NCBI GenBank assembly: GCA_027600665.1
Contig: JADGJL010000381.1
Location: forward strand, 1 to 23,365
Direction: 5' to 3'
Length of the DNA: 23,365 nt
Source: Irineochytrium annulatum
Lineage: Eukaryota; Chytridiomycota; Chytridiomycetes; Chytridiales; Chytridiaceae
Positions 1,664 to 23,363 of this stretch are shown piece after piece. The notes beneath the pieces were generated by a model. The model worked only from the letters and a program-made list of their open reading frames with translations. It made no database searches and was not told the origin of the DNA. Both the position numbers and the translations under genes were made by a program. Position 1 is the first letter of the stretch; each line of letters opens with the position of its first letter.

Positions 1664-3440
1664 ATGCGCCGCCTCACCGGCCTTGTCCTCGGCCAGCGCC
1701 AGGAGTCCGCCTTCATGGTCGTCGTCGACCCGCACGCTCCAATTGACCTTCTGCGGGCCAAGATCGCGGCCCGCATTCTGATAGCAGCGGACGTGTTCCA
1801 CCTGTTCCGCATCAACGACCCATCGCTGAAGCTGTTCGACGCCCGCCTCGACCCGGCCGTCTGGCAGGCCATTGAGCGCGATAGCCTCCAAGAAAGCAGC
1901 AATCCGACCGCAGTGGACGACGCTGGCATCCGACACCTCCTCAACAACGTCCCCTGCACGCTCCTTCCGACCCCGTCGTCCTCCATCGCAACTGCCGCGT
2001 CAGCCGCGACCATCGGCGATTGGTTCGGGTTTGAGACCCAGGACCGTGGTGCCAACTTCCACAAGGTATTTCTTCCTTCCGCAGGATGTAATATATTATG
2101 CTGACAACTGTTCTCCCTGAAAGGTCCACTTCACCATTCTTGTTCCCCAGATTATTACGCCCTCCGTCGTCGTCAGCGCCACCTCGTCGCCTTCCAACGT
2201 CCTCCTCCGTTCTCCTCCGGCGTCGCCCTCAATACAAACATCTCGTCTATCTAGCGACCCTATTGATACCCCCGATGCCAGCACCACATCGACCGAAACG
2301 CCCACCATCCTGCCACCGAGCCCACCAACCTCGGAGGACAATATGTACACGTCCTTCGAGGATCTCAACCTGAACCCACCGAGCCCTTCCACAATCGTCA
2401 CAGACACTTCTCACTCGGCGCGTCTGAGCGCGCTGGCGCGTACGAACTCCCTAGGCTCCACAGCCGTCAACCCCGTCGCACCCACCCTTCCTCCCATCGA
2501 CGTTCTCGACGAGGAGGACGAGGACGAAGACGACAACCCCTCCCCGCGAGCTCCGCTCTTCCCCAACGGTCTCACACCCAGCCGACTCCTCCCTCCCCCC
2601 ATCCGTACCCGCAATCGGAATTCCCTCACGCCCACCGTTGAGTCCTCCATCTATCCGGACGACTCCATCTCCTACATCGACGTCCGCGACTTTATCCTCG
2701 AGCGACGCCGCGCCGCTCAGCAGCAACTCGACCGCAACGGAGACGACCGCGACGACGCCACCATCGTGCCTGCAGCTTCGGGCACGTCCGATGACGACGG
2801 CTCCCCGTGGTGGGCCGATGGCGCGTCCCTCGCCGCGACGCACGACGAGATGTCGGTGCTTGACATGCACGACGACTGCGACTTCACGTACCCGCGCGAA
2901 CCCCTCCTGGACCTCGTGGCGCCACCGCGCACGAGCACGACCACCACCAGCTGGTCTTCGACCACGTCCCCTCCCGCGACGCCAACGACGCCGACCGTGA
3001 CGACGCCCACCGTGACGACGCACCCGTCCCTCCTGCGCAACATCCTGACTCCCCGCGCGCCCCGGGAGCCCCGGGAGCCGCGGAGCCTCCGGTCCCGCAA
3101 GTCGAGCTCGCTCAGCTTCGCGGGGACGGCGTCCATCATCGGCCGGCCGCGCGCCCCCAGCTCGTCGGCGGGGTCGTCGGCGGGATCGCGGTCGTCGGCC
3201 GAGGGTGACGCGCCGCCGGCCATACAGTGGCCCGAGATGCCGCCGGGGCTGCCGATGGAGAGGGTGCGGAGCGCCAAGAGCGGGAAGGCGTCGATGGAGG
3301 GGAGGGCGAGCACGAGTACGAGCGGGGGCAGCTCGAGGGAGGGCACGCTCAAGGGTGGGAGTAAGAAGGGGAGGCAGCCGATCACGATGGAGGAAAAGGC
3401 CGCGATGGAAGCGGCGCTGAGGCTCATTGGGGTCGCATGA
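1664..3440 (+). CDS. Crinkler-like protein: ubiquitin-like N-terminal domain plus disordered Ser/Thr/Pro-rich tail
   Basis: Spliced CDS 1664-2065 joined to 2124-3440 (intron 2066-2123, phase 0), 572 residues. Residues 1-144 resemble the Crinkler (CRN) N-terminal domain. They start with a short MRRL then GLVLGQ, followed by an SAFMVVVD strand, a helix like the DLK region of CRNs (IDLLRAKI), an FRIND strand, and a closing VHFTILVP (135-142) in the place of the conserved iHilVq-P / HVLV element. That last element is rebuilt only by removing the intron, which supports both the splice and the family call. The start is chosen because CRN domains begin a few residues before this strand; no classical signal peptide is visible, as is usual for CRNs. 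The rest (about 145-572) is low complexity: Ser/Thr/Pro-rich, an acidic run at about 263-271, a WWADG at 363-367 and Arg/Ser-rich stretches. I see no nuclease, kinase or other CRN C-terminal effector domain, so it may be a CRN-domain protein with a non-effector tail. Confidence 0.75.
2066..2123 (+). other. Intron of the Crinkler-like gene
   Basis: 58 nt, donor GTATTT after an AAG codon, branch-like TGCTGAC at 2098-2104, acceptor GAAAG at 2123. It carries a stop in the upstream frame (TGA at 2102-2104). Removal joins two frames at phase 0 and gives 73 further open codons before the first Met of exon 2 at 2343. An alternative acceptor (CGCAG at about 2083) does not restore the frame. Confidence 0.8.
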
Positions 3441-4997: not shown

Positions 4998-5075
4998 ATG
5001 AGGACAACGTTTGTTGTCGGGTCGCTCTTGGGCGTCGTATTCTCCGCCGCGGGGCCAACAGCGGTCGCGGCGCAA
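4998..5075 (+). other. Signal peptide of the giant protein
   Basis: Residues 1-26: a short basic start (MR), a Val/Leu/Phe/Gly core and an Ala-rich c-region with an AVAA-type cleavage site just before QQ. It is followed within 10 residues by the first module cysteine (5103). This implies entry into the secretory pathway, where the disulfides would form. Confidence 0.85.
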
Positions 5076-8000
5076 CAGGCGGCCGCGACCGTCGCCGCGT
5101 CCTGCAGTGGGGTGCCTGATGGCCATATCGTTTGCACGTCCGGGACCGCATTTCAGACGTGCTTGGGCGGAGGTACGGTGTTCGGCGCTTTCTCTTTATT
5201 TTATCCTCCCTTCTCGAGGTCAGCAACCGATTAACATACTTCGTGGACAGCGCTCGTTCCGGGGACCCAGACTTGCCAAACGGGACTGCGGTGCTGCACT
5301 TCCGCCAACGCTTGCATAGCAGCTGACGCGAATTGCCCGTCGCCCCCTGCTCCTTCCCCCGCACCCTCACCATCGTCTACGCCGCCATCATCCTCCCCTT
5401 CTCCCGCCGCCAGCCCGTCACCTGCCCCCGTCGTCGCCCCGTCGTCCCCTGCCGCCGCTGCTAAGGCACCGAGTTGCTCCGGAGTTCCTGACGGACATAT
5501 CGTGTGCACGGCGCCGAGCACTTTTCAAACTTGCTTAAACGGAGGTACGTTGTTTCCTTTTTTTCCCCTTCTCTGGGTATTCCTTCCCAAATTAGCTTTA
5601 CTGACGTTTAAATATCGCACAGCTTTGGTACCAGGCACTCAGAACTGCCAAGCGGGACTGGTTTGCTGTACCTCCTCCAACTCATGCCAGCTGCCGTCTG
5701 CCACCTGCGCCTCCGGCACGGTCGCCGCCGGTGGATCGCCGGCTGCTTCGCCCGTTGTCGCATCCCCTGGGGCCACCGGCGGCGCGTCGTGCAACGGCGT
5801 GCCCAACGGCCACATTGTTTGTACGTCGGCAACGGCCTTCCAAACGTGTCTTAACGGAGGTGCGGTTTTTCTTTCACTTCCTTTCGGGGCTATTTATGTT
5901 TGTAAACAACTTCCACTGATCCTTGTTCAAAATAGCCATGGTACCCGGCACTCAAAGTTGCCAGGCTGGGCTTCAGTGTTGCACATCTTCCAACTCATGC
6001 ATAGCTTCCGGGTCGACGTGCGCGAGCGGTATCCTTACGACGACTGTCTCTGCGGCGCCTGTTTATGTCACGCCTTATGGACCGGCAACGGGCTTTATCG
6101 CGCTGACGTCGGGTAACCTTTGCTCGGGCATTGCGGACGGGAAGATTGCCTGCTTGTCGGACACGACGTTCAATATCTGCCAGGGCGGTGGTACGTTTTA
6201 ACCTTACATTTACTTTTTTCCACGTCTAAATTCAAACGTGTCCTCTTCACAGTTTTCGCTCAAGCCGCCCCTCAAAGATGTGTTGCTGGTCTTCAGTGCT
6301 GCACCGCAACCGACCGCTGCGAGTGGCCCGGTCAGTGCGGGACATACCAGTACGCGACGAACCTCTGCAATGGCATCACGGACAACCACATCGCCTGCAC
6401 GAGCGCCACGACCTTCAACATCTGTGCCGGCGGAGTCTTCGCCCGGGCCGCCGACCAGACCTGCCAGGCCGGCTTGCAGTGCTGCACCGCGACGAACTCG
6501 TGCGTCCGGCCCGGCGAGTGCCCCTCTGGTGCCTACACGCCCTTTGTCACGCCCACCGTCACGGTCCTGCCCGTCGCCCAGAACGCGTACGTCTGCGCGA
6601 ACCCGACCACCGTCGCCCCCGTTCTGGTCACGTCGACGTCGAACCCGTACCCGGGAACTTGCATTGGAATCGCGGATGGTCATATTTCCTGCACGAGCGA
6701 CACTTCGTTCAACGTGTGCTTGGGCGGAGGTATGTATTACTTCCTCGTTTTACATTTTTTGATATGTGGGAATGGCTAACCTTTTTCTCGGTTACTTAGT
6801 TTTCGCGTCTGCCCAGCTTCAGAAGTGCCCGGCCGGCACCGTTTGCTGCACATCTCAGAACGCTTGCGTTTACCCCGGTAACTGCGCGACTATGACGTAT
6901 TCGTACACGATCCCTGCCTACACGCCTACCTGCACGCCCTCGCCGATCGCGTCGGCCACGATCGTCACCGTTACGCTCGCGCCCACGACCGTCATCACGG
7001 CGAACGTCGTCACCGTCACGCTCTCCGGTGCCGCCGCCCTCGTCCCCGTCGCCACCGTGTACCAACCCCCGCCGTCAGCTTGCTACGCGATCCCGGACGG
7101 TCACATCTCCTGTTTGTCGGCTACCACGTTCAACATATGCCAGCGGGGTGTGTTTGCACAGGCCGCGCCGCAGAGCTGTCCGGCGGGCCTGATCTGCTGT
7201 TCCGCGAGCAACTCGTGCCAATGGCCTGGTACTTGCAATGTCGTTACCGGAAACTACTGCGCGAACATCCCGGACGGGCACATTTCTTGCACCAGCAGCA
7301 CGACCTTCAACATTTGCACGGGTGGAGGTTGGTTTCACCATCCTATATGCTCGCGAATTCGATGCTAAAACTTTTTCCTGCAGTCTTTGCCTCCGCGCTC
7401 GACCAGGTCTGCCAGCCTGGGCTCCAGTGCTGTACCGCGACGAACTCTTGCGTCTACCCCGGCCAGTGCCCGTCGCCTTTCACTGCTGTCGTCCCGACCG
7501 CCACCCCTGTCGTGGTCGCCCCGGTTGTAGGCTTGCCCACGGTCGTCGTTGTCACACCCTCGCCTATCGTCACGTCGCTCTCGCCTTACCCAAACTCATG
7601 CGTGGGTATTCCGAACGGAAACCTGGCTTGCAGGAACGCGACAAACTTCCAATACTGCATTAACGGAGGTGCGTTATTTTTTCTTCTTTAGTGACGCATG
7701 GCGGATTCATTGACCGATTTTTCCAGCTTATGTCCTTGCGAACGACGTCGTGTGCCCGGTCGGTACTACCTGCTGCACCTCGGCGAACGCTTGTGTCTGG
7801 CCCGGTTCTTGCCCTGCCGTTCTCTACACCGTCACGCCCTCGCCCGTCCTCGCGACCACTTACGTGGTCCAGCCGACCAACATCCCCGTAGTTACGGCCG
7901 TATATACTCCGGCGCCCAACATCTGCAACGGTGTTAAGGACGGAAATATCGCCTGTTTGAGCGCGACCACGTTCGAGACCTGCCAGAACAACGTCCTTTC

Positions 8001-11000
8001 GACGGCTGCGGTGCAGAACTGTCCGGCCGGTCTCTACTGTTGTGCTGCAACGAACAGATGTGATTACCCTGGTAATTGCCCCGTCGTGAGGAACAACTAC
8101 TGCGCGGGTGTCGCGAACGGAAACATTGCTTGCACGGGTCCCACCACGTTCAACATTTGCGCTGGAGGAGGTTTGTAGTTTTGGTTTAGTCGCAATCGAG
8201 AGCATTGCATTGACCCTTACCTTGCTTTTTTTAGTTTTTGCCACACAGGTTGATTGGTCTTGTACTGCCGGCACCGTCTGCTGCGCTGCCACGAGCTCCT
8301 GCGTTTACCCTGGGATGTGCCCGTCCGCTGCCAACTACATCCCGGCGCCTGCCTTCACCTACCCCATCGTGTACCAGGTTCCGGCGATGGTCACGGCGTT
8401 CCCGCCGGCTCTCGTCGTCGCGACCCTGAACCCGTACCCAAACAACTGTTTCGGTATTCCGGATGGACATGCGGCTTGCAAGAACGCGACGAACTTCAAC
8501 ATCTGCCAGGGTGGTGGTGAGTAACTTTTATACAATTGGACGATGGTATATGGAAACTCATATCGATTTTAGTTTACGCCCAGGCGGCTGACCAGGTCTG
8601 CCCTCTCGGTCTGCAGTGCTGCACGTACCTGAACGAATGCGTCTACCCCGGCCAGTGCCCGATCGGGACCTACACCGTCACCCAGGCGGTGGCTACCGCC
8701 ACTATCTCGACCGTCGCTGTCCTGCCGACTGTCTACCAGGCCCCGAACTTGGCCTGCACGGGAATGCCGTCAAACTCGATTGTCTGCCTGTCGCAAACGA
8801 CCTTCAACATCTGCAATAACGGTTTCCTCGCCGCCGCGAACGCTCAGACCTGCGCGCCCGGAACTGTCTGCTGCCAGGCTACCAATAGGTGCGACTGGGC
8901 CTATAACTGCCCGTACGCGTACGCCCCGTCGACCTCGTCGTGCGCCAATATCCCTGACAACCACATCTCGTGTCTGACGTCAACCTCGTTTAACATCTGT
9001 CTGGGCGGTGTCTTCGCTAACGCGGCGGCTCAATACTGTCCATCTGGGACGGTTTGTTGCGCGAGCAGCAACCGTTGCGATTGGCCGTCGAACTGCGGTG
9101 TCGTTGCCGGCAACCTCTGCGCCAACATCCCGGACGGTCACATCTCCTGCACGGGCTCGACTACTTTCAACATCTGCACGGGGGGTGTCTTCGCTCATGC
9201 CGTTGACCAGACTTGTGTGCCTGGTACGGTTTGCTGCACGGCGCTCAACCAATGTGTCTACCCCGGTCAATGCACCTACGGCGCCTACAACACTTACGTC
9301 CCGCCTGTCCTCGTTCTCCCGCCCGCCCCATCGTACGTTACGTTCCCCGTCGTCACCGCCACGTTCAACCCGTTCCCGAACGCTTGCGCCGGTATCAGCG
9401 ACGGCCACATCGCCTGCAGGAACAGCACGAACTTCAATATCTGCCAGGGTGGTCAGTACGTCATTGCGAACGATCAGGTGTGCCAGCCCGGTCTCGTCTG
9501 CTGCACATCCTCAAATGCATGTGTCGCTCAAGGGCAATGTCCCGCCGTTACGTATTATGTCACCCCGCCGCCGATTATTCCCTTCACCCCGGTCACTATC
9601 TATGTTACGCCGTTTGTGGGCTCGACTCCGTCTGTCACCCCGACCATTACGCCGAGCGTGGCGCCCATTCTGGCCAACCTGTCGCCTTGCCAATCGACAC
9701 TTAACAACCAGATTGCATGCGCTAACTCGACGTCGTTCTGGGTCTGCTTGGGAGGTGCTCCCGCTAGCGGTATCAACGCTCTGCAGAGTTGCCAGTCGGG
9801 TACTGTCTGCTGCGCCGCGACAAATAAGTGCGACTGGCCCGGTAACTGCCCTGCCGTCTATGGGAACCTCTGTTACAATGTGCCCAACGGCGGTGCTGCG
9901 TGCACGGGCCAAACGACGTACAACATTTGTGTCGGCGGCGTGTTCCAAAACGGCATCGACTCCTCTTGTCTCCCCGGTTTTGTGTGTTGCCCTGCCCTAA
10001 GGCAATGTGTTCTGCCCGCTCAGTGCTTCGCCTCGTTGCAGTCGGCGACGCCTACCCCGACTCCAACTGTGACGTCATACGTTTTCCAGACCTCGACGGT
10101 CATTCTCACCACTGCGACGCCGAACCCGTACCCGAACTCCTGCTTGGGTATTCCGAACGGTCAGATCTCGTGCAGGAACGCAACCAACTACGGCTTCTGC
10201 GAAGGCGGACAGTACATTAACGCGGTGGACTCGGTTTGTCCCTCGGGTACCACTTGCTGCACTGCTGCAGACTCTTGCCTGCCGACCGGCAAGTGCCAGA
10301 CTTTCGGCTATGTCTACGCCTCAACGTCGTACTTCTACACCACTATCCCAGTCACGACCGCCGTCCCGACCGTTACGGTTGCACCGCTTATCACGTACAC
10401 GCCGAACCCGTACATCGCCTGCAATGGCATTCCGAACGGACACATTACGTGCTACAATGCGACATCGTTCAACATTTGCCAGAATGGCCTTGTCGCCCAG
10501 GCTGCGCTCCAGAGCTGCCCGGCTGGTACTGTGTGCTGCACGGCGACAAACAGGTGTGACTGGCCCGGAAGCTGCCCCGTTGTCCAGACGAACCAATGCT
10601 ACAACGTTCCTAACGGCCAGATCTCTTGCACTGGCCCCTCGACGTTCAATATCTGTACCGGCGGCGTTTTCGCCTACTCGATGGACCAATCCTGCCAGCC
10701 TGGTCTTCAGTGCTGCGGTGCGACGAATTCGTGTGTCTACCCCGGAACCTGCCCAACAACCAATGGCGTCTCGGCGTTCTTTGTGCAACCGCGTCTGAAG
10801 AAGCGCCAGGTCTTCGTCTACCCCGGCGTCTCGACGGTCTATTACTACCTGCCCCAGGTGACAAACAACGTCGTCCCGTACACGATTCTTGCCGGTCTTC
10901 CCGTCATCGCTACCATTAACCCGTACCCGAACGCATGCACCGGTATCCCTGACGGCCACATCGCGTGCAAGAACTCGACCAACTTCAACATTTGCCAAGG

Positions 11001-14000
11001 TGGTGTCTACGCCTCGGCCGCCGACCAGTATTGCCCGGCCGGTACTACCTGCTGCACAAGCTCGAACTCTTGCGTCTATGTTGGACAGTGCCCCGTCGTC
11101 ACCTACACTGTTACGCCCGCCATTAATACGTACGTCCCGACATATACGCCTGCTCCTATCGCTCAAGTGCCTACGGCTTACATTTACACGCCGCCTACGA
11201 ATATTTGCACCGGAATCCCGGATGGCCACATTTCGTGTCTATCGTCGACTACCTTCAATATTTGCCAGGGTGGAGGTTTGTATCTTGTTGATTGAACATA
11301 CGGCTCAATTTCTTTTTTCTAGTCTTCGCACAGGCGGCGCCCCAGTCTTGTGTTGCCGGCACTGTTTGCTGTACTGCAACGAACAAATGCGATTGGCCTG
11401 GAAACTGCCCGGTTGTCTACAACAACCTGTGCTCGAGCGTGCCCAACAGTAACTTGGTTTGCACGAGCCCGTACACGTTCAACATTTGCACACAAGGAGG
11501 TGAAGCCTTTGCGCTTAAATCGATGTTTCGCAATTTAACCCGTCTTTTTTAGTGTTCGCATCGACCCTCGGCTTTACCTGCATGCCGGGAACCGTTTGTT
11601 GCCAGACGACGAACTCATGCGTTGTGCCCGGCACGTGCCCCAACGGAGGCTACACCTACACGGTAACGATCGCCCCATCGACTGTCTACGTTACGCCAAC
11701 GCCGACAGCCGTCGCCCCGTACGTGATTGTAACGACAACCATGAACCCGTACCCAAACTCGTGTCTCGGCATCCCGGACAACCAAATCTCTTGCAAGAGC
11801 TCCACTAACTTCAATATCTGTCTTAACGGTCAGTTCGTCCAAGCCGCCGACCAGGTCTGTCAGCCGGGTCTCGTCTGCTGCACATACGCAAACAAGTGTT
11901 TGTACCCGAATCAGTGCGCCCCGCTCACGTATACGTACACGTCGTACGTTCTCCCGCCCGCCGCTGTGACGACCTCTACTTCGATGACGATGACTGCGCT
12001 TTCGACTTCGACGGCCACAGTAACCTCGGGCAGCTTAACAACTACCACAGCGTCGACGGTTACGGTCACGGTTGTGACGACATTCACTCCCTCCCCCACA
12101 CCGTGCGCCTCCGTTCCAGACGGTCACATTTATTGTTTGAACGCCATCCAGTTCAACGTTTGCGTTAAAGGAGTCTTCGCTCTCTCGTCGACCCAGGCAT
12201 GCAACCCCGGTCTCGTCTGCTGCGCGGCGACGAACATGTGCGACTGGCCTGGTAACTGCCCTGTCGTCACCGCGAACCTTTGCTCCGGTATCCCCAATGG
12301 CCAACTCTCCTGCACCAGCGCCACCACATTCAACATATGCACGGGCGGTATCTTTGCCTTGACCGTGGATCAAACGTGTCTCCCTGGCCTCCAATGCTGC
12401 GCCGCTCTCAACCAGTGCGTCTACCCTGGTCAATGCCCGACGGGGGTCTTTACAGCTCCAGCCCTGCTGTTGAACCCGGTCGTGCCGCTCCTCCCGGCCC
12501 CGCCGCTCGTTGTTACTATGACCCCGTACCCTGCATCGTGTCTGGGGATCCCGGATAACCACATTTCCTGCTTGACCTCGACGACATTTAATATTTGCTC
12601 CGGTGGAGGTATATAGCGACAAGGAATTTCTGTGCTTGATTTTAACTATATCGCTTTCTAGTCTTCGCCCAGGCACAGGCACAGACGTGTCCCGCGGGTC
12701 TTCAATGCTGCACGGCTTCGAACGCTTGTGTCTACCCCGGGCAATGCCCCGTCGTTACTTACACCGTTGCCACTCCGGCCGCGACTTACGTTCCCACTGT
12801 GATCGCGGCGATGACGTATGCGACACCGACGTATACGCCCGCTATCAACGTGTGTTCGAACATCCCGAATGGTCACATTAGCTGCTTGAGCGCGACTACG
12901 TTCAATATCTGTCAAAACGGAGGTTAGTTTCCATACACTCATTGTATAGACCTATACAGTTTAGATTAATGTTTCTTTTTAGCATTTACGACCTCCCAGT
13001 CTCAGTCGTGCCCGGCTGGTACTGTGTGCTGCACGGCGACAAACTCTTGCAATTGGCCCGGTGACTGCCCCGTGGTTTCCAACAACCTCTGCTACCAGAT
13101 TCCGGATAACCATATATCCTGTACGGGAGCCACGACCTTCAACGTTTGTACCGGAGGTGTCTTCGCCCTCGCTCACGACCAGAGCTGTGTTCCCGGTACT
13201 GTTTGCTGCACTGCCCTCAACCAGTGCGTCTGGCCCGGTTCCTGTCCCGGCGGAGGTTATACTTACACGGTCGCTCTCCCGGCTATTGTCACTCCGACTG
13301 TTGCCGCTGCTGCTGTCCTTGTCACGGCGACCCAAAATCCATACCCCGGCAACTGCGTTGGTATCGCCGACGGTCATATCTCCTGTACGAACAGTACGGC
13401 TTTCAACGTCTGCCTGGGCGGCGTCCCCGCCAGCAATGGAGCTCTTCAAAGCTGCCCGTCCGGTCTCACTTGCTGCACGGCCTCGAACTCCTGTGTCAAC
13501 GCGGGACAGTGCGCCGTCGTTACCTACACGGTTACCAAGCTCAACCCGACCTTCACGCCGGTCCCAACGCCCGTGTACGTTGCCCCTTCAAGTGTGTGCG
13601 CAAATATTCCGGACAACCATATCACCTGTCTCAGCTCATCGACCTTCAACATCTGCTTGGGAGGACAGATGGCTGGTGCTGCGTACCAAACCTGCCCCAC
13701 CGGCACAGTTTGCTGCGCTGCGACAAACAGCTGCAACTGGCCGGGTAACTGTCCTGTTGTCTACGCAAACCTTTGTGCCGGAGTTCCCGACAATCATATT
13801 GCTTGCACCGGCACGACCACGTTTAACATTTGCTTGAGTGGAGGTTTGCATTTGCTGTTTTCTTTTCACGATCGCTAAAGCGTTCAATTGCTAATTCATC
13901 TTAGTCTTTACTGGCGCTGTCGACCAGTCTTGTGTCCCCGGCACCGTCTGCTGTACCGCTACGAACAGCTGCGTCTGGCCTGGGCAGTGCCCGACCGGTA

Positions 14001-17000
14001 CCTACGTAGCTCCGGCTGCTCTTTTGACTCCGTCTTACGTCTACCCGGTCGCTCCTGTTATCGTAACGATGAACCCGTACCCGTATGCTTGTTATGGTAT
14101 TCCGGACAACCACATCGCTTGCTCAAACCAGACTGCGTTTGGTATCTGCATGGGCGGTGTTCTCGCAAGCAACGGTGCTCAGCAAAGCTGCCCGGCGAAC
14201 ATGGTCTGCTGCACGGCTGCCAACGCTTGCTTATACCCTGGTCAATGCCCCGCCGTGACCTACACCGGTACCCCTGCTGCCACCGTTTTCCAGACTATTA
14301 CGGTCACAGCTAGCGCCGCCGTTGCTACGATTCCCGTACCGGCTGCATCTTGTAAAGGTGTTTTGGATAATCATATTACGTGCTACAACCCGACGACATT
14401 TAACATCTGCTTGAACGGAGGTAACTTTATTAGAATGCCGCTATCTAATCTAATCGGAATTTAAAGCGTATTCTTTACCGAATCCGCAGCAGTGTAGTCC
14501 GGGAACGATTTGCTGCACCGCTACCAACCGTTGCGATTGGCCTGGAAACTGCCCCGTCGTTACGAGCAATGCATGCTATAACGTCCCAAACCAGAACATT
14601 GCTTGCACCGGTGTCTCTACGTATAATGTCTGCGTTGGTGGAGGTGAGCTTGGCGCTTGTGTTCCGTTACCTTATTCACTGATGTCGATAAATTTGTAGT
14701 GTTCGCGCTGGCCCTCGATGCTTCGTGTAGCCCCGGCTTTGTTTGCTGTTCATCGACGAACTCTTGTGTCTACCCCGGCCAATGTCCTCAAGGATACTAC
14801 GTTTACCCGCAAACCTTGCAGCCGACCTACACTGCTTACGCATCCCCGACGATCGTCCCGGTTGTAACCACGATCCCGGCCTACACGGGCTCCTGCGCCG
14901 GCATTGCTGATGGTCATATCTCCTGTACCGATTCGGCTACCTTCGGTGTTTGCCTCGGTGGTGTCTTCGCCAGTGGCGGCGCAAAGCAGAAGTGCCAGTC
15001 CGGTCTCACTTGCTGCACCGCCCTCAACCAATGCGTAGCTGCGGGGGCGTGCCCAACCGTTACGTACACCGCTACCCTGATCAACCCCGCCGTTTACGCT
15101 ACTCAGGGGGCGTCAATGTACACTCCGGCCTCAACGGCGTGCGGTTCGATCCCGAACGGCTACATTTCCTGCGTGACGTCGACAACTTTCAACATATGCA
15201 ATAATGGCGTCTTCCCGTCAAACGGTGTTCAGAGCTGTCCATCTGGCACCGTCTGTTGCGCTGCCTCGAACAGCTGCAGCTGGCCTGGAAGCTGCCCGGT
15301 CGTCGTTGGCAACCTGTGCACAAATATTCCGAACAATAACATTGCCTGTACCGGAAGCACGACCTTCAACATCTGCACAAACGGAGGTGAGCCCTCTATT
15401 TTTATTGTAGAACCGGATTTTAATGTAGATAATAGTTTTCGCACATGCTCTCGACCAGTCTTGCCAGCCCGGTCTCGTCTGCTGCACCGCTACGAACTCT
15501 TGCGTGTACCCGGGTCAATGTCCGACTGGCGGTTACGTTGCCCCCGCTGCAATTGCTACACCCGTCGTTTCTCTTGCGTACGCACCTATCACCGCTACTC
15601 TGACCGCTTACCCGAACTCGTGTGCTGGTATTCCCGACAACCACATTGCTTGCAAGAACGCGACCAATTTCAACATTTGCTCCGGAGGACGTTCGTTTAT
15701 TGTTTACATTATTGATCGTGACTAATCCTCGCTTTCAGGGTATGTGATCGCGCCGGATCAGATGTGCCCTGCGGGAACTACTTGCTGCACAAGCTCCAAC
15801 GCGTGTGTCTACCCGGGTCAATGCCCTTCCGTTACCTACACCGTTTCGGCCGTGACGACGACGTACGTTCCGTTGGCAACCCCGGTTGTTGCCACCGTTG
15901 CGTATAATGCTCCAAACTCCGCGTGCCAGAACGTTCCAAACGGTCACATCTCTTGCTTGACGGCGGCGACCTTCAACATCTGCCAGAACGGAGGTTAGAT
16001 AATATTCGATAATGAAGCTTACATATTGTTAGCCTTCTCTTTAACGCAACCGCTCCCTTGTGGTCCGGGGACGGTTTGCTGTACCGCGACTAACAGGTGC
16101 GACCAACCTGGTAACTGCCCGGTCGTCAGCAACAACTTGTGCTACAACGTCCCGAATAACAACATTGCGTGCACCGGACCGACGACGTGGAATGTTTGCT
16201 ACAACGGAGGTAAACGTTCTAACGCCTCGCTACCGATTGCCTGACTCGTTATAAAGTTTTCACAAACTCTTTGGATTCGTCTTGCCAGCCGGGCTTCGTT
16301 TGCTGTACCGCGTTGAACGCTTGCGTTTACCCGGGAACTTGCCCTGGCCCCATTAATGTGGCGATCAATGCACTCTCAAATCCAGTGGCCCTTATTTCTG
16401 GATCTTGTCAAGGCATCCCCGACGGAAGCATCTCATGCATTTCAAATACGACTTTTGGCATCTGTCAATACGGCTGTAAGTTTTTACTTCCGTTTTGTTG
16501 TTTGTTCTGCACTTCTAACGTGCTTTTCCTAGCTTTCTACAACGCACCCGCCCAGTCTTGCGTTGCGGGCACTGTTTGCTGCACTGCTTACAACCAATGT
16601 ATTTGGCCCGGTCAATACTGCCCTTCGATGTACCAGCTTCAGCCCGCCGTGGTCACCGTCACTCCCGTTCCGTATGTTATCGGCGCTTACGTCTACGCCA
16701 CGCCGCTTCCCTATGTGACCGTCACGATTCCGCAAGGCTCGTGCACCGGAGTGCCTAACGGCAACATTGCTTGTCTTACGTCCAACTCGTTTGGTGTCTG
16801 TCAGGGAGGAGGTTCGTCGTAATCGGACCCATGTTGGTTTTAATGATTATTTCTAGTTTTCGCTGCTGGAGCGAACGCTCAGTACTGTCAAGCCAATTTG
16901 ATCTGCTGTCAGTCGATGAATCAGTGTGTGTACCCGGGCCAGTGTCCTGCGGTTGCTACCGTTATTCCGGCGCCTACTCCGATTACAGTAAACGGCGTTG

Positions 17001-20000
17001 TTGTTCCCTACGGGTCTTGCGCGGGTATTCCCAACGGCAACATTGCTTGCTTGACGACATCGACTTTCGGCGTCTGTCTTGGTGGAATGTTCGTGAATTC
17101 CCTGGCGCAAGTGTGCCAGCCCGGCTTGGAGTGCTGTACCGTAACGAATCAGTGCACTTGGCCGGGCACCTGCCCGATCATTGTTGCCCCTCCAGCTATC
17201 GCTGCTACGACGACAGCCTCAAGTGGTACATCAATCCCTGTAAAGAGCACTTTGGGAACCGCGAAGTCTGTTTCGGTATGTGCATTTATTCGATTGTCCG
17301 TGTATCATTGACAAACTTGTTTTAGTCACCGAGCGGAACCTCCACCCCGGCTACTACTACGTCTGCCGCGGCTCCGGCCAATCCCACAAACTTCTATTGT
17401 ATGGGTGGTGACGTCGTGGTTGGAATCAATGGAGGTAGGCCGAGTTTTCAGTAAAGATTAAATATTAACGGATGTTATCATGCAGCCCTTGTGCAGTGCG
17501 GTTCCATCCCGACAAGTCTTTACGGCGGTACTGCATCGCCTAAGAGCTGCATAAACGTTAATAACGTGGCCAACGTCGCTCTCTTTGCCTGCGGTGGAAA
17601 CTGTTGCGAGTCTTTGGGAGGGTGTGTTCAGCCTAATACCAATTGTCCCGCAACGAACCGCGGTCCTCCAGCGGCCGCGCCCTATAGATTTGAAAAGCAC
17701 GTGAAGATTGAGAGCAGGTCTTTCCCGGATTCGTGTGCCTATGTTAAGGACAACCAGATGGCTTGCGCCTCTGCTACGACGTACAACATCTGCCAGAAAG
17801 GAGGTAAGCCTTTTTCTTTGCTCTCTTTTCGCGTGTTTACTCACGTCGATTTTAGCACCCATCTTCGGCACTCAAACCTGCGCCTCGGGCCTCGTCTGCT
17901 GCACCTATCTTAACCAATGCATCTGGCCTAACCAAGTGTGCCCGCCTGCCCCTGGCCCCGCGGCTCAAACCCCTGTCGCTTCGTCGTTACCGTTCGTTGC
18001 CGGTGCGATCGCTGTCAGCGCTGGAGTGCCGATCACCGGAACTTGTACCGGCATTCCCGACGGCCACATTTCTTGTATGACATCTAGCACCTTTGGCATT
18101 TGCCTTGGCGGAGGTTGGTGCATTTTGCTTTTGAGACTATTTCGTGTTTGCCGACCTATGTTCTTTAGTCTTTGCCACGTCTGCCCCGCAGAGTTGTCAA
18201 GCCGGCTTGATTTGCTGCACGGCCACGAATTCCTGCCAGTACCCGAGCTCCTGCCCCGGCACCAACACTGCTTTGGCTACAAATAACTGCGCGGGTATCC
18301 CGGACGGCCAGATTAGCTGCATCTCTACGTCTACGTTCAACATCTGCCAAAACCAGGTGTTCGTTAACGCGCTACCTCAAGTCTGTCAGCCTGGATTGGT
18401 CTGCTGCACATCGCTCAATCAATGCATCAACTCGTACCAAACCTGCCCGGCGGTGGCTCCGACTCCCATAGTTCCTTCTCCGACGGTTACTGTTATTGGT
18501 GTTTACATTCCGACCGTGACGATTACTATGGTTCCGATGGGTTCATGCGTTGGTGTTCCCAACGGCCAAATCGCCTGCAGGACTTCGGTTTCGTTTAATG
18601 TTTGCCAGGGAGGAGGTACAAGTTCTGTTTTCTTTTAGTACCCTAACGAGACATTTTAGTGTTTGCTCTTGCCGCCGACTCCTTCTGCCAGGCCGGCACC
18701 ATCTGCTGCCAGTCGACGAATAGCTGCACGTACCCTTTCAACTGCCCTGGTGCAGCCTACGTTGCTCCTGTCAACCCCTGCGCTGGTGTTCCGGACTTGC
18801 ACATCGCTTGCTTGGACAATACCTTGTTCAATATCTGCCTTAACGGAGGTTCGTTTCTCGTTTAGAATGCTCTTTAATGTTTCCCACCTTTTTGCTGAAC
18901 GTTCAATTAGTCGCTATTCAAGCTCTTCCGCAATACTGTCAAAGCGGCTTCCAGTGCTGCACGGCGGCGAACGCATGTGTTAACCCCGGTCAATGCCCTA
19001 ACCCGAACGTCATTCCGACGATCGCGCCGCAAACGTCCACGTCGACGACAATGACGACGACTACGACCAAGACGCGGACTGGGACGAGAACGAAGACCGC
19101 GACGTCGACGACAGGAACGGCTGTGCCTGCGATCACCCCTAGCTCTTGCGTTGGTATTCCGGATGGTCACATCTCCTGCGTGAACTCGACGTCGTTCGAT
19201 TTCTGTCTCGGACAACGTAAGTTCGCCTCTTCATTCCTGTTGTTCCACACGCCGTCTGACAGAGTTCACTTACTATAGGGTACTTGGGTCTTGGCTTCCA
19301 AAACTGCGCCCCCGGAACTGTTTGTTGCATGACGACGAACCTGTGCGACTGGGCGTACAACTGCCCTGCCCAGCCCGTTACGGCAGTTGCATCGCCGTCC
19401 AGCCCTTGTCTTGCCATCCCGGACGGCCGCATTTCCTGTAAATCGCCTACTACGTTCAATGTCTGCCTCCACGGAAGTAAGTTCGGTGACTTGTCTAATC
19501 ACGGTTGGCTAACCTCTATTCAGTGTTCTCGACGACTGCCGATCAGCAGTGCCAGCCTGGTCTGCAGTGCTGTACCTATCTTAACCAGTGCGTCTACCCG
19601 GGAGGATGTCCTATCCCCAATGTTTATCCCACGATCTCCACAATCGGTACTGTCGGAAGTGTCGGTACCGTGTCGGTGACTTGTGCCGGCGTACCTAATG
19701 GCAACATTGTCTGCACGAGCTTATCGACCTTCACCACGTGTTTGAACGGAGCTATTGCTTCTACCGCCAGCCAGAACTGCCCTGCCGGTCTCGTGTGTTG
19801 CGCCGCCACAAATTCGTGCAACTACTTGTCGGCCTGCCCGTCAGCAGCCAACCTCCCGTCGGGCACTACTATCGGTCCGCTCGCAAACCCGTGCGCTGGT
19901 CAGCCGGCGAACGCGATTGTGTGTACGGGCCCAAACTCGTTCAACTACTGTAGCAACGGCATCCTTTTGTCAACCCCGAGCCAGAGCTGTGCGGCGGGTA

Positions 20001-21999
20001 CTGTTTGCTGCGCGGCGACGAACACATGCAACTACCTTGCGTCCTGCCCTAGCGGTGCTGCGGCTTACATCGGCACTACGATCGGGACGGGCGTCCCCGC
20101 AACGGGAGTTACTATCACTGCAAGCTCCTGCGGGTCACTGCCAAACGGAGCTACTGTGTGCACGGGCCCAACTCAATTCAACTTCTGTTTGAACGGTGCC
20201 CTTATCGCCAACACCCCGTCACAGTCCTGCCCCGCTGGAACGGTATGCTGCGCAAACACGGGCCAGTGCAACTTCTCGTCGACCTGCACGGCTGCCGGTA
20301 TTCCTGCGGGAACCATTACAACAAGTGCATCTACTTGTGCTGGTCAGCCTAACGGGGCTACGGTTTGCACCGGTACGAACACTTTCAACTATTGTGCAAA
20401 CGGTATGATTATGGCGAACACGGCCTCGCAGTCCTGCCCGGCCGGCACTGTGTGTTGCGCCGGGACAGGTCGCTGTGACTACCTGTCTAGTTGCTCGTCT
20501 GGTACCATCTCCACGGCGACCGGCTCGGGCTCCGTTAACCCTGTTACCGTTGCTTCGACATGCTCCGGTGTCGCCGACGGACAGCTCATCTGCACCGGGC
20601 CGACTACGTTCAACTACTGTGCCGGAGGCTCGATTGTTACGGGCCACAAAGATCAGAGCTGTGCGCCGGGTACCGTTTGCTGCGCTGCCACCCGTCTTTG
20701 CGATTACGCCTCGAACTGTGGCTCAGCACCGGTTGTCGCCGGATCGACGACGCCTTCTGGCAGCACCGGCGGGGCCGTCAGCTTCACGGGGTCGTGCACC
20801 GGGTTGACCGATGGGTCCCTCGTATGCAGGAGTCTTAACACGTTCAACTACTGTCTTGGCGGCATGTTCGTTGGCACGGCTGACCAGGCGTGTCCGTTGG
20901 GTACCGTCTGCTGCCCCGATACCGGGCGATGTAACTACGCGAGCAACTGCGCTGGTGGGCCGCCGACGGGGATGCCTGCCTCCACCACCCCGACTGTCGT
21001 TGCTGTCCCAGTCGCTCAGTCGGTTGTGCCGCCGATGGTCATCGCCAACTGCACCGGAATCGCAGATTATGGGCGCGTTTGTAACGGTCAAACATCTTTT
21101 GTTTACTGCAAAGGAGGAGGTGAGATTCGTCGCATAACATTATATTGGCGACTCTAACTGAATACTTTATCAGCTCCCATCCCGAACCAGGCTATCAACT
21201 CTTGCGCCCCCGGTACGGTCTGCTGCTCGAACTCGAACTACTGCGATTGGCCCTCGAGCTGCCCGGCTGCGCCCCCTGCTCCTGTCATCCCTCCGCCGGC
21301 TCCGTCCGGTATCGCTAACAACGCCGTTTGTGTCGGCCAGCCAAACGGCGCGACTATTTGCGCTGACTCGACCAACTTCGCCGTCTGTATGAAAGGATGT
21401 AAGTCTTTAGATGTCGTTTAAGCATAGCTAATATGATGCCAGTGGTTTCCTCGACTCAACCTTGCGCGCCCGGGACTATTTGCTGCGCTGCTACCAACCA
21501 GTGTGACTTCGCTTTCAACTGCCCTGGTGGTAGCGTCAAACCTCCAGCGGTGTCACCTGTTACAAACGCGCCTTGCTACGGTGTTCTGGACGGCTTCAGC
21601 GTCTGCTCGACCGACATGTCCTCTGTGCTGACCTGCAAGGGTGGTGGTACGTATCCGTTAATTGGGGCCCCAACGTTTCGCAAATAACCTTTGTCTTATG
21701 TAGCCACCCAAGCGTCTCTGTCTTGTGGCACTGGCACCTCGTGCTGCCCGACGTCTCGGACCTGTGTCGGGACCGGTACTTGCCCGTCCGTCTGCGCCGG
21801 CGTCGCGGATTCTTCTCTTGTTTGCCAGAGCGTGAACACATTCACTTTATGCGTTGGGGGAGGTAAGAAGTCTTGTGTCAAAATAGTATGACAGCGTTTC
21901 TAAAACATTTTCGCAGGACCTACGTCGCTTATTACTTGCGCCGCGGGTACGGTTTGCTGCCAAGCCAAACAAGTCTGCGATTACCCTTCCAACTGCTGA
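4998..21999 (+). CDS. Giant secreted 63-module cysteine-rich (CBM19-like) protein, 35 exons
   Basis: I resolve one gene of 35 exons; the spliced CDS is 15,111 nt, about 5,036 residues. Residues 1-26 form a signal peptide: MRTT, a hydrophobic core, and an Ala-rich end with likely cleavage after AVAA. The rest is 63 modules, each about 52 residues, C-x9-C-x8-C-x12-C-x5-CC-x5-C-x5-C, with consensus GIPDGHISC, TTFNICxGG, VFAxAxxQSC, PGTVCC, N-x-C and (D)WPGNC or VYPGQC. That is about 500 cysteines and probably four disulfides per module. The first half (DGxIxC, C, then CxxGTxC) resembles the chitin-binding CBM19 family; the CC and WPGNC end is extra. Thr/Val/Pro-rich linkers with NPYPN separate many modules. 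There is no enzyme domain, transmembrane segment or GPI signal; the chain ends in a module Cys. All 34 splice junctions keep one frame, so splitting it into several genes is unlikely. The ligand (chitin or another glycan) is inferred. Module number could be under-counted if the assembly collapsed repeats. Confidence 0.93.
5103..6021 (+). repeat. Modules 1-3, N-terminal module class
   Basis: Three modules that resemble each other more than the rest: PxGHIVC, AFQTCLNGG and A(L/M)VPGTQxC in place of TFNIC and VFAxA, and no WPGNC. Linkers are Pro/Ser/Ala-rich (5335-5475 and 5700-5790), unlike the Thr/Val linkers further on. Each module carries an intron at the common site, so exons 2 and 3 are single-module units made of the end of one module and the start of the next. 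Confidence 0.85.
8573..11275 (+). other. Exon 10, long intronless block of modules 13-22
   Basis: A 2,703-nt exon with ten complete modules (13-22) and halves of 12 and 23, none carrying the intron found in most other modules. It holds the doubled A module (13/14) and a KKR site at 10798-10806. Its neighbours on both sides are split every one or two modules. Confidence 0.88.
10798..10806 (+). other. Possible Kex2 processing site (LKKR-Q) in a B-type linker
   Basis: Residues K1735-K1736-R1737 of the giant protein, preceded by Leu and followed by Gln, in the linker after module 21. Dibasic KR is the known target of the fungal Golgi protease Kex2. Basic residues are rare in the linkers, which makes this one stand out. 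Cleavage is inferred. Confidence 0.4.
16406..17173 (+). repeat. Modules 43-45, end of the regular array
   Basis: After module 42 the three-module order breaks down. Modules 43-45 share TFGxCxxG instead of TFNIC, and GNIAC in modules 44 and 45. Module 43 has one extra residue before its last Cys (PGQYC). Intron 21 (16476-16532) and intron 22 (16812-16856) are at the common site. Confidence 0.8.
17326..17646 (+). repeat. Divergent module 46 (exons 24-25)
   Basis: A Ser/Thr-rich stretch ends at a phase 0 intron (17276-17325), the only intron outside the common site. Then comes a sequence with FYCMGG, VQCGS, SC, LFACGGNCC and CVQPNTNC. The CC and final-Cys spacing recall a module but the DGHIxC-TFNIC half is missing. 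Intron 24 (17435-17485) is phase 1 after a GGA codon, as in true modules, so I read this as a degenerate or strongly diverged module. It could instead be an unrelated small Cys-rich insert. Confidence 0.6.
17733..19609 (+). repeat. Modules 47-53
   Basis: Seven modules without clear A-B-C order, six of them with the intron at the common site. The linker of exon 29 (about 19010-19140) is an unusually Thr-rich run with interspersed Lys/Arg, a likely O-glycosylated stalk. Exon 29 ends CAA-C and joins GG from exon 30, so module 52 has GQR in place of GGV. Confidence 0.82.
19682..21262 (+). repeat. Modules 54-60, FNYC class in exon 31
   Basis: A second local expansion with its own signature: mostly NG(A)xVCTG, FNYCxNG, a T/SQSCPAGTVCCA core and CNY or CDY followed by LSSC or ASNC in place of WPGNC. 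Modules 54-59 lie in one 1,596-nt exon without introns; module 60 carries the intron at 21120-21173. Linkers are short and Gly/Ser/Thr-rich without NPYPN. Confidence 0.82.
21329..21996 (+). repeat. Modules 61-63, C-terminal modules
   Basis: Three diverged modules, each split by an intron at the common site (introns 32, 33 and 34). Module 62 has an extra residue before its third Cys, and module 63 follows 62 with only a two-residue linker. The final exon (21917-21999) encodes just the second half of module 63 and stops right after its last Cys with TGA at 21997-21999. Confidence 0.85.
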
Positions 22000-22700: not shown

Positions 22701-22716
22701 CTATACTTTACATGTA
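22612..22716. repeat. 49-bp tandem duplication with small palindromes
   Basis: Two imperfect direct copies with a 49-bp offset (cores starting 22619 and 22668). Both share CAGTGTTT, CACTGCG, ATAACACTATGTAT and CATGTA. Each copy has a small hairpin at its left end: CAGTGT/ACACTG with a 4-nt loop in copy 1, and CAGTG/CACTG in copy 2. Copy 2 contains the stop codon of the minus-strand gene (22701-22703). Confidence 0.8.
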
Positions 22717-23363
22717 ATCGCCATCATTCTCAAAATGAGAACGCTGTAAGCATGGTCAGGCTCAACCATTAGATTCAAAGGCCTCGTGCCGTGGTGTCCT
22801 CCGTAAAAAGTAACATTGTACATATCCGAGTTTGTGGTCCATACAGCAATGCATGTCTCGAATACGGCTGCCAGGGCAGCATACGTGCGGTCTTGAACCG
22901 TTGGCAGCATATCATTCTCCGTTGGTGGTGGCGATATCAATTGAGCATGTTGAGTTCTGTCCTTGAGGTAATTCACAAAGTCGCTGCCGTCGTCGAGTTG
23001 TATGCCTACCTTCACATATATAGTCCAAATTACAGCATGATAGACATTGTCGTCATGGCGGGGAATGGCTGTCTTGACTATGTCTTGCCGTTCTACCTCC
23101 ATAATGCCCTTTTCACAGGAAAACGGCTTCTGTCTTTCAAGGCCGCAGACGCGATCCTGCTCCTGACGTAGCAGTTCCTTGTGCTGTTCCCGTAGACTCG
23201 TTATTAGCTGTTGCAAAGACTCCTGCTGGAGCACTGGCCACAGAAGCGGAGGCTGTTGGAGCGGTTGGAGTGGAGGCTGTTGGGTTAAGGCTCGTTCATT
23301 CAACAAACGGGCCACCACGGCCAGACAAACTATTAACTTCTTTCGTCGCCGTGGACTTAACGG
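22701..23363 (-). CDS. Hypothetical protein with coiled-coil and possible OTU-like region (5' end outside window)
   Basis: The minus-strand frame is open to the window edge, so the true start may lie beyond it; within the window the first ATG lies well inside the frame, so a start here is not convincing. Counting from the GTG at 23318 (205 residues), residues 10-65 are Gln/Leu/Pro-rich then a heptad-like helical stretch (QQLITSL, EQHKELL, RQEQDR). Residues 88-195 have the layout of an OTU cysteine protease: DDNVYHA where OTU has DGNCLFRA, then a helix, RTYAALAAVF, CIAVW strands and DHAYSVL where OTU has its HY motif. The catalytic Cys position is Val, so it would be inactive if homologous. 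OTU-like domains occur in fungal mobile elements as well as host genes. The family call is weak; the reading frame is moderately supported. Confidence 0.5.
   Translation of the reverse strand, partial: PLSPRRRKKLIVCLAVVARLLNERALTQQPPLQPLQQPPLLWPVLQQESLQQLITSLREQHKELLRQEQDRVCGLERQKPFSCEKGIMEVERQDIVKTAIPRHDDNVYHAVIWTIYVKVGIQLDDGSDFVNYLKDRTQHAQLISPPPTENDMLPTVQDRTYAALAAVFETCIAVWTTNSDMYNVTFYGGHHGTRPLNLMVEPDHAYSVLILRMMAITCKV

Follow-up and report, generated by a model that had tools for sequence, protein, structure and literature searches.

A single gene at positions 4998-21999 of the forward strand of contig C416 of the chytrid Irineochytrium annulatum probably encodes one secreted giant protein, composed of modules related to the CBM14 and CBM19 domains, that would bind chitin through avidity and cross-link or coat the cell wall or extracellular matrix. 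The window analysed here is the entire contig (23,365 bases, in a genome of 26.9 Mb). Chytrid walls contain chitin, and, to our knowledge, the organisation of chitin walls in early-diverging fungi is poorly known; a family of giant chitin-binder-like proteins in chytrids would supply a concrete scaffold to test.

The gene model rests on a Viterbi splice model anchored at the ATG at 4998, which yielded 35 exons, 34 GT-AG introns of 39-78 bp, and a single frame open to the stop ending at 21999, with 5,036 residues and 506 cysteines; one acceptor was moved by eye, placing the end of intron 2 at 5622 and restoring module sequence. The coordinates, the 35 exons, the approximately 5,036 residues, and the 63 modules proposed in an earlier note on this DNA were all reproduced for the predicted gene by this splice model. 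When the ends were left free over the whole window, 4998-21999 with 34 introns was returned again (score 2955), as compared to a score of 57 and no modules on the minus strand and scores of 8-13 and no modules in five dinucleotide shuffles of the gene; as the codon table was trained on the same gene, these controls show contrast rather than independence. By contrast to the splice model, the GenBank entry for the gene (HK101_007564, "hypothetical protein," 3,332 aa) is truncated, corresponding to residues 237-3589 minus 2851-2940 and being out of frame thereafter, and the entry for a paralogue on contig C230 (HK101_004606, 2,735 aa) covers residues 299-3293 of a 4,896-residue splice model. Such shorter models would fit several adjacent genes or an assembly artefact in place of one protein, a reading that we consider highly improbable and rejected as the main one: the largest non-coding gap is 78 bp, the free-end model returned identical ends, the paralogue is colinear over 59 of the 62 regular modules, and predicted proteins of Dinochytrium, Phlyctochytrium, and Zopfochytrium combine an array with the same C-terminal modules (the C-terminal cap) in one chain. 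With regard to misassembly, a repeat search (seed 20, minimum 30 nt) reported two families, of 91 and 72 nt, with copies 60-77% alike, rather than long exact repeats. The single open frame, the short gaps, the colinear paralogue, and the single-protein relatives in other genera thus bear out the earlier claim of one gene, which is well supported; the gene is real and well conserved, and both giant genes show that standard annotation can truncate genes of this type.

A fixed cysteine pattern defines 62 regular modules in the protein, 44 of which follow C-x9-C-x8-C-x12-C-x5-CC-x5-C-x5-C exactly (i.e., spacing 9-8-12-5-0-5-5); residue-shuffled versions of the protein (n = 200) contained a mean of 0.045 modules and a maximum of one. 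Together with a divergent 63rd module (Table 1), these hold 504 of the 506 cysteines, and 1,805 residues lie outside the 62 regular modules. The central block consists of 13 A-B-C triplets (modules 4-12 and 14-43) plus an extra A-like module 13, each of the three types having a separate consensus; over modules 4-44, lags of 3, 6, 9, and 12 gave similarities 17.8 units above those of the remaining lags, as compared to a maximum of 8.9 in 1,000 permutations. The A-B linker is 7 residues long in 12 of the 13 triplets, and B and C are followed by linkers of 21-65 residues. The C-terminal residue is the last cysteine of module 62, with no C-terminal anchor, and the most hydrophobic windows by hydropathy, near residues 694 and 2487, fall in Pro/Val/Ala-rich linkers and would not appear to be membrane helices. 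With 9 Glu, 89 Asp, 35 Lys, and 35 Arg (3.3% charged), the protein is almost uncharged; the charged share is 3.6% in the paralogue and 8.2-9.8% in the three giants of other genera.

Table 1. Features of the giant gene (window coordinates).
Feature	Coordinates	Strand	Basis and remarks
Whole gene	4998..21999	+	Splice model; 35 exons, 34 introns, 5,036 residues, 506 Cys
Probable signal peptide, ~25 residues, AVAA/QQ	4998..5072	+	By eye; hydropathy of 1.82 in the window at residue 5
N-terminal modules 1-3, intron in each	5103..6021	+	Cysteine pattern
Central block, modules 4-43	6121..16621	+	Period three; consensus and linkers
Exon 10, modules 13-22, intronless	8573..11275	+	Splice model
Module 20, example (CBM_14 E 0.0025, 18.3 bits)	10420..10575	+	Single-module Pfam scan
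Modules 44-45	16742..17173	+	Cysteine pattern
Divergent 63rd module, eight Cys, residues 3698-3763; phase-1 intron 17435-17485 at matching place	17398..17646	+	By eye
C-terminal block, modules 46-58	17734..20950	+	Cysteine pattern, module tree
Exon 31, modules 53-58, intronless	19524..21119	+	Splice model
C-terminal cap, modules 59-62	21050..21996	+	Alignment to C termini of paralogue and three other-genus proteins

Intron positions follow the modules closely. Phase 1 applies to 33 of the 34 introns, and each of the 32 that interrupt a regular module splits one and the same codon in this phase, four residues past the third cysteine (C3). The paralogue shows the same codon for 31 of 31 within-module introns; the other 7 of its 38 modelled introns fall outside modules, including four in the doubtful 5' part. 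Intron presence was concordant in 43 of the 59 paired modules of the two genes (Fisher p 0.0006) and showed clustering in the window gene (23 runs vs 32 expected, p 0.014). We infer that the ancestral module already bore an intron, that symmetric phase-1 exons allowed the array to grow through exon duplication, and that introns subsequently disappeared, in part from consecutive modules (13-22 and 53-58), such that the fixed phase-1 intron would make the array a record of exon-duplication growth followed by intron loss.

The similarity of the module to CBM14 and CBM19 appears weak but specific. In single-module Pfam scans (cut-offs 22.1 bits for CBM_14, PF01607, and 20.1 bits for CBM_19, PF03427), CBM_14 was found in 11 and CBM_19 in 7 of 30 window modules, with six other families in one module each and most E-values at 0.002-0.3, while cysteine-preserving shuffles of the same 30 modules matched neither family (0/30 for both) and two other families once each. 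Among 64 modules from the window and its homologues, CBM_14 was found in 19, CBM_19 in 17, and thirteen other families once each. A total of 32 of the 62 window modules were scanned singly, and neither cut-off was passed by any of the 23 with full tables (maximum 18.3 bits for both families). Detailed tables for 21 of the 30 modules showed ten CBM_14 matches, at 18.3 to 11.7 bits; seven span the profile from position 1 or 4 to at least 47, and three start at position 15 or 16. Module 20 gave the best CBM_14 score seen, with residues 1-51 aligned to profile positions 1-49 of 53, and modules 23 and 28 scored lower or lacked the match. CBM_19 matches with detail (n = 3; 18.3, 17.2, and 16.4 bits) cover positions 26-60 of 61, i.e., only the latter half of the profile, with no full-length domain match among the three; the best CBM_19 match in the window (E 7.4e-4, bits unprinted) would lie near the cut-off by extrapolation. 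Module 14 matched both families.

Searches with longer sequences and with structures gave a mixed picture. No Pfam or NCBIfam family was matched by two long segments of the window protein, and none of the 22 CBM_19 matches across the genome falls at a window locus. A paralogous array (C51:283-441) passed the CBM_19 cut-off (24.8 vs 20.1 bits) and an Entophlyctis homologue, P0025, passed that of CBM_14 (E 3.1e-7, 30.8 vs 22.1 bits); CBM_19 was matched below the cut-off in the whole homologues P0002, P0015, and P0008 (E 0.0032, 0.0098, and 0.004, respectively), and most others matched no family. In the PDB, the best match of one P0025 module was the chitin-binding domain of human chitotriosidase (residues 1-50 of 51, E 0.062), whereas module 23 reached a chitin-binding beak protein only weakly (E 0.56), behind an unrelated match (E 0.17); whole P0025 matched only the unrelated FlgD (E 0.076), module 20 alone matched only antistasin (E 7.3), and the module profile matched no chitin binder. 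The best PDB match of that profile, to hydrophobins (E 0.5), rests on a 13-residue CC stretch, and hydrophobin identity was rejected, as was hevein/CBM18 (PF00187; one match among 64 modules, at E 0.1, and none among 30 window modules). Profile comparison with the CBM19 set of the same genome was weak (probability 15.5% vs 0.3% for shuffles), and CBM_14 and CBM18 profile searches of the genome gave no match anywhere, with equally silent controls, and so carry no weight. A WSC-like N-terminus of P0013, a protein encoded on C212, looked plausible by eye and was set aside, Pfam giving nothing up to E 1.

At the residue level, chitotriosidase Pro451, Leu454, and Trp465, which in PMC6128652 are aligned by the authors with Avr4 P87, L90, and Y103, correspond by spacing count to module positions 34, 37, and 48, and the Avr4 contacts C101-D102-Y103 described there correspond to positions 46-48. 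An aromatic residue stands at position 48 in 48 of the 62 modules; other key Avr4 residues are partly lost, with no common aromatic at position 45 (Trp100), Asp47 in 9 of 44 modules, and Pro34 in 20 of 62. On the best reading, the module would be an eight-cysteine distant relative of the CBM14/CBM19 domains. Because of this likeness, the high avidity for chitin suggested in the earlier note gains sequence support, chitin binding itself being a prediction.

Patterns of cysteine loss bear on the disulfides of the module. The module profile gave 427 matches on 27 sequences, 390 of which, spread over 26 sequences, occupy 44 or more of the 52 columns. Cysteine was missing from at least one of the eight columns in 79 of these 390 modules, with a shifted cysteine nearby in 60; the remaining 19 lacked C2 with C5 (six), C6 with C8 (six), C5 with C6 (one), C7 with C8 (one, where the sequence ends), and single cysteines (five). 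Twelve of the 14 two-loss modules fit C2-C5 or C6-C8, and the C5 with C6 row does not; the paired losses recur in several genera, although some rows are paralogues and the independent events hence fewer. These paired losses suggest bonds C2-C5 and C6-C8, which would leave C1, C3, C4, and C7 to pair as in CBM14, where the six-cysteine framework is C1-C3, C2-C6, and C4-C5. By analogy with the Avr4 disulfide Cys86-Cys101, as given in PMC6128652, C4 would pair with C7 and, by remainder, C1 with C3.

The CBM14/peritrophin-A family (PF01607; Avr4, tachycitin, the chitotriosidase domain, and insect peritrophins) resembles the module in its length of approximately 52 residues, in the order of its cysteines, and in its CP-x-G and C-D-W/Y motifs; the module differs in having eight cysteines with a CC pair, putative C2-C5 and C6-C8 bonds, and 63 copies per chain. 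CBM19 (PF03427), a chitin-binding domain known from fungal chitinases, shares the C-x2-G-T-V-C core and the fungal setting, whereas the giant has no chitinase domain. The six-cysteine CBM19 domains of the same genome, unlike the giant array, occur in small proteins of another kind. Eight loci (L038-L045, on C354, C557, C618, C222, C201, C843, C9, and C165) carry near-identical CBM19 domains, two per locus, in small proteins with Pro/Tyr/Ser linkers in the three loci read, and form a multicopy CBM19 family. In PMC3569864 and PMC5364385, the multi-CBM18 lectin-like proteins of Batrachochytrium are likewise tandem chitin-binding modules in a chytrid, most with secretion signals and some without other domains, but their modules are hevein-type with a different cysteine pattern, and the 2012 report (PMC3569864) gives up to 11 per gene, as compared to 63 here. 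Insect and tubeworm peritrophin-A matrix proteins (PMC8476170, in part, and general knowledge) offer a works-like analogy as secreted chitin-binding modules; these are animal proteins, unlike the chytrid giant, and the analogy is limited to the domain group.

With regard to function, we infer a secreted, non-enzymatic single giant chain. Each module of approximately 52 residues would fold as a small CBM14/CBM19-related chitin-binding domain, with eight rather than six cysteines and disulfides C1-C3, C2-C5, C4-C7, and C6-C8, and the closely linked A-B pairs and single C modules would be carried on Thr/Pro/Val/Ala-rich linkers that are perhaps O-glycosylated. None of the 26 scanned homologues (27 were listed; P0019 was left out) had a catalytic Pfam domain over the cut-off, and the reading of a module joined to an enzyme in one protein was rejected; a hydroxyethylthiazole kinase match in P0014 reached 11.4 bits, below the cut-off. 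A long chain with 63 chitin-binder-like heads and no recognised enzyme suggests that many weak sites per chain bind the polymer by avidity and bridge fibrils, the most likely role being that of a cross-linker or coat of the chytrid chitin wall or extracellular matrix. Of the wall or zoospore-coat role proposed earlier, the zoospore coat is the less probable of the two, because chytrid zoospores are described as wall-less.

CBM14 and CBM19 are known as chitin-binding families, and chitin is present in chytrid walls; both points would favour own-wall cross-linking, our first choice, over its main rival, adhesion to foreign surfaces. A carbohydrate-binding module directed at something other than the organism's own chitin, i.e., at a substrate or another glycan, seems to us rather unlikely, even though resemblance to CBM14/CBM19 alone does not fix the ligand and the authors of the Batrachochytrium CBM18 work, in PMC5364385, favour adhesion or damped host recognition over shielding. 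We regard it as improbable that the array is a secreted precursor from which modules are released by cleavage, or an Avr4-like shield of wall chitin against chitinases. The intermodule linkers could be cut, but basic residues are scarce (35 Lys and 35 Arg in total) and the 5,036 residues contain one basic run (KKR, 1735-1737), so that usual cleavage sites are few; Avr4 is a binder of fungal chitin with a protective effect against chitinases (PMC6128652), and against a shield of this type only the size difference counts.

The paralogue on C230 is the second giant of the genome. Its splice model contains 60 modules, and, as the first exons are doubtful, its length is closer to 4,800 residues. 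The 59 window modules paired with it in order show 65% identity, as compared to 45% in linkers, and dN of 0.289 for modules vs 0.551 for linkers; dN/dS for modules is omitted because synonymous sites are saturated. Among the 506 window cysteines, 478 align with cysteine in the paralogue and 2 with other residues, and reciprocal best hits gave 27 module pairs, 22 of them in order vs 7.9 by chance. The colinearity of modules in both paralogues thus indicates that an array of approximately 60 modules is older than their duplication. Further array matches in the genome were found on C51, C212, C507, C422, and C269.

Protein database searches revealed at least 27 homologues among the matches listed (17, 5, and 5), with candidates chosen by length and shared words (in the first search, the best 7,999 candidates were scored); 26 of the 27 carry an organism name, and all 26 are chytrids, as we take the genera other than Irineochytrium to be. 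A search with 3,400 of the 5,036 residues yielded, among the matches listed, giants from Dinochytrium kinnereticum (3,045 aa), Phlyctochytrium bullatum (3,543 aa), and Zopfochytrium polystomum (2,337 aa). Modules 59-62 align to the final residues of these three and of the paralogue, with identities of 123/239, 117/239, 82/236, and 140/241, respectively; for the Zopfochytrium protein (P0023), the cap scored 400 and central pieces 349-416, so that the cap aligned no better and only the position at the very end would speak for cap homology. In a tree of 227 modules, in which supports were often low and the modules short, C-terminal modules were mixed across genera and A-B-C modules grouped almost only within the two Irineochytrium genes; the C-terminal part therefore looks old and the centre lineage-specific.

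The earlier description of such proteins as unusual in fungi needs narrowing, as large arrays recur in several chytrid genera and the named matches listed are all chytrid. Tentatively, chytridiomycetes may possess giant proteins of the wall or matrix that form a class not yet described, equivalent in fungi to the peritrophins, with eight-cysteine chitin-binding chains acting as chitin cross-linkers, conserved C-terminal ends, and a centre re-amplified by lineage (here as A-B-C triplets via phase-1 exon duplication). No paper on this protein family was recognised among those listed from CC-licensed PMC text; its members, with a module resembling both CBM14 and CBM19, are annotated as shorter hypothetical proteins and missed at Pfam cut-offs.

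Over the whole window, Rfam gave no matches at gathering. Elsewhere in the window, the first exon of an upstream gene (1664-3440, forward strand) weakly matches a Crinkler effector N-terminus (PF20147, E 0.006, 17.8 bits vs a cut-off of 24.6) and is followed by a Ser/Thr/Pro-rich part. A 220-residue ORF on the reverse strand (22701-23363), open at the contig end, has no Pfam match over the cut-off, and positions 1-299 of the forward strand hold the 3' end of a gene for a possible membrane protein, with a hydrophobic stretch and a basic tail recognised by eye.
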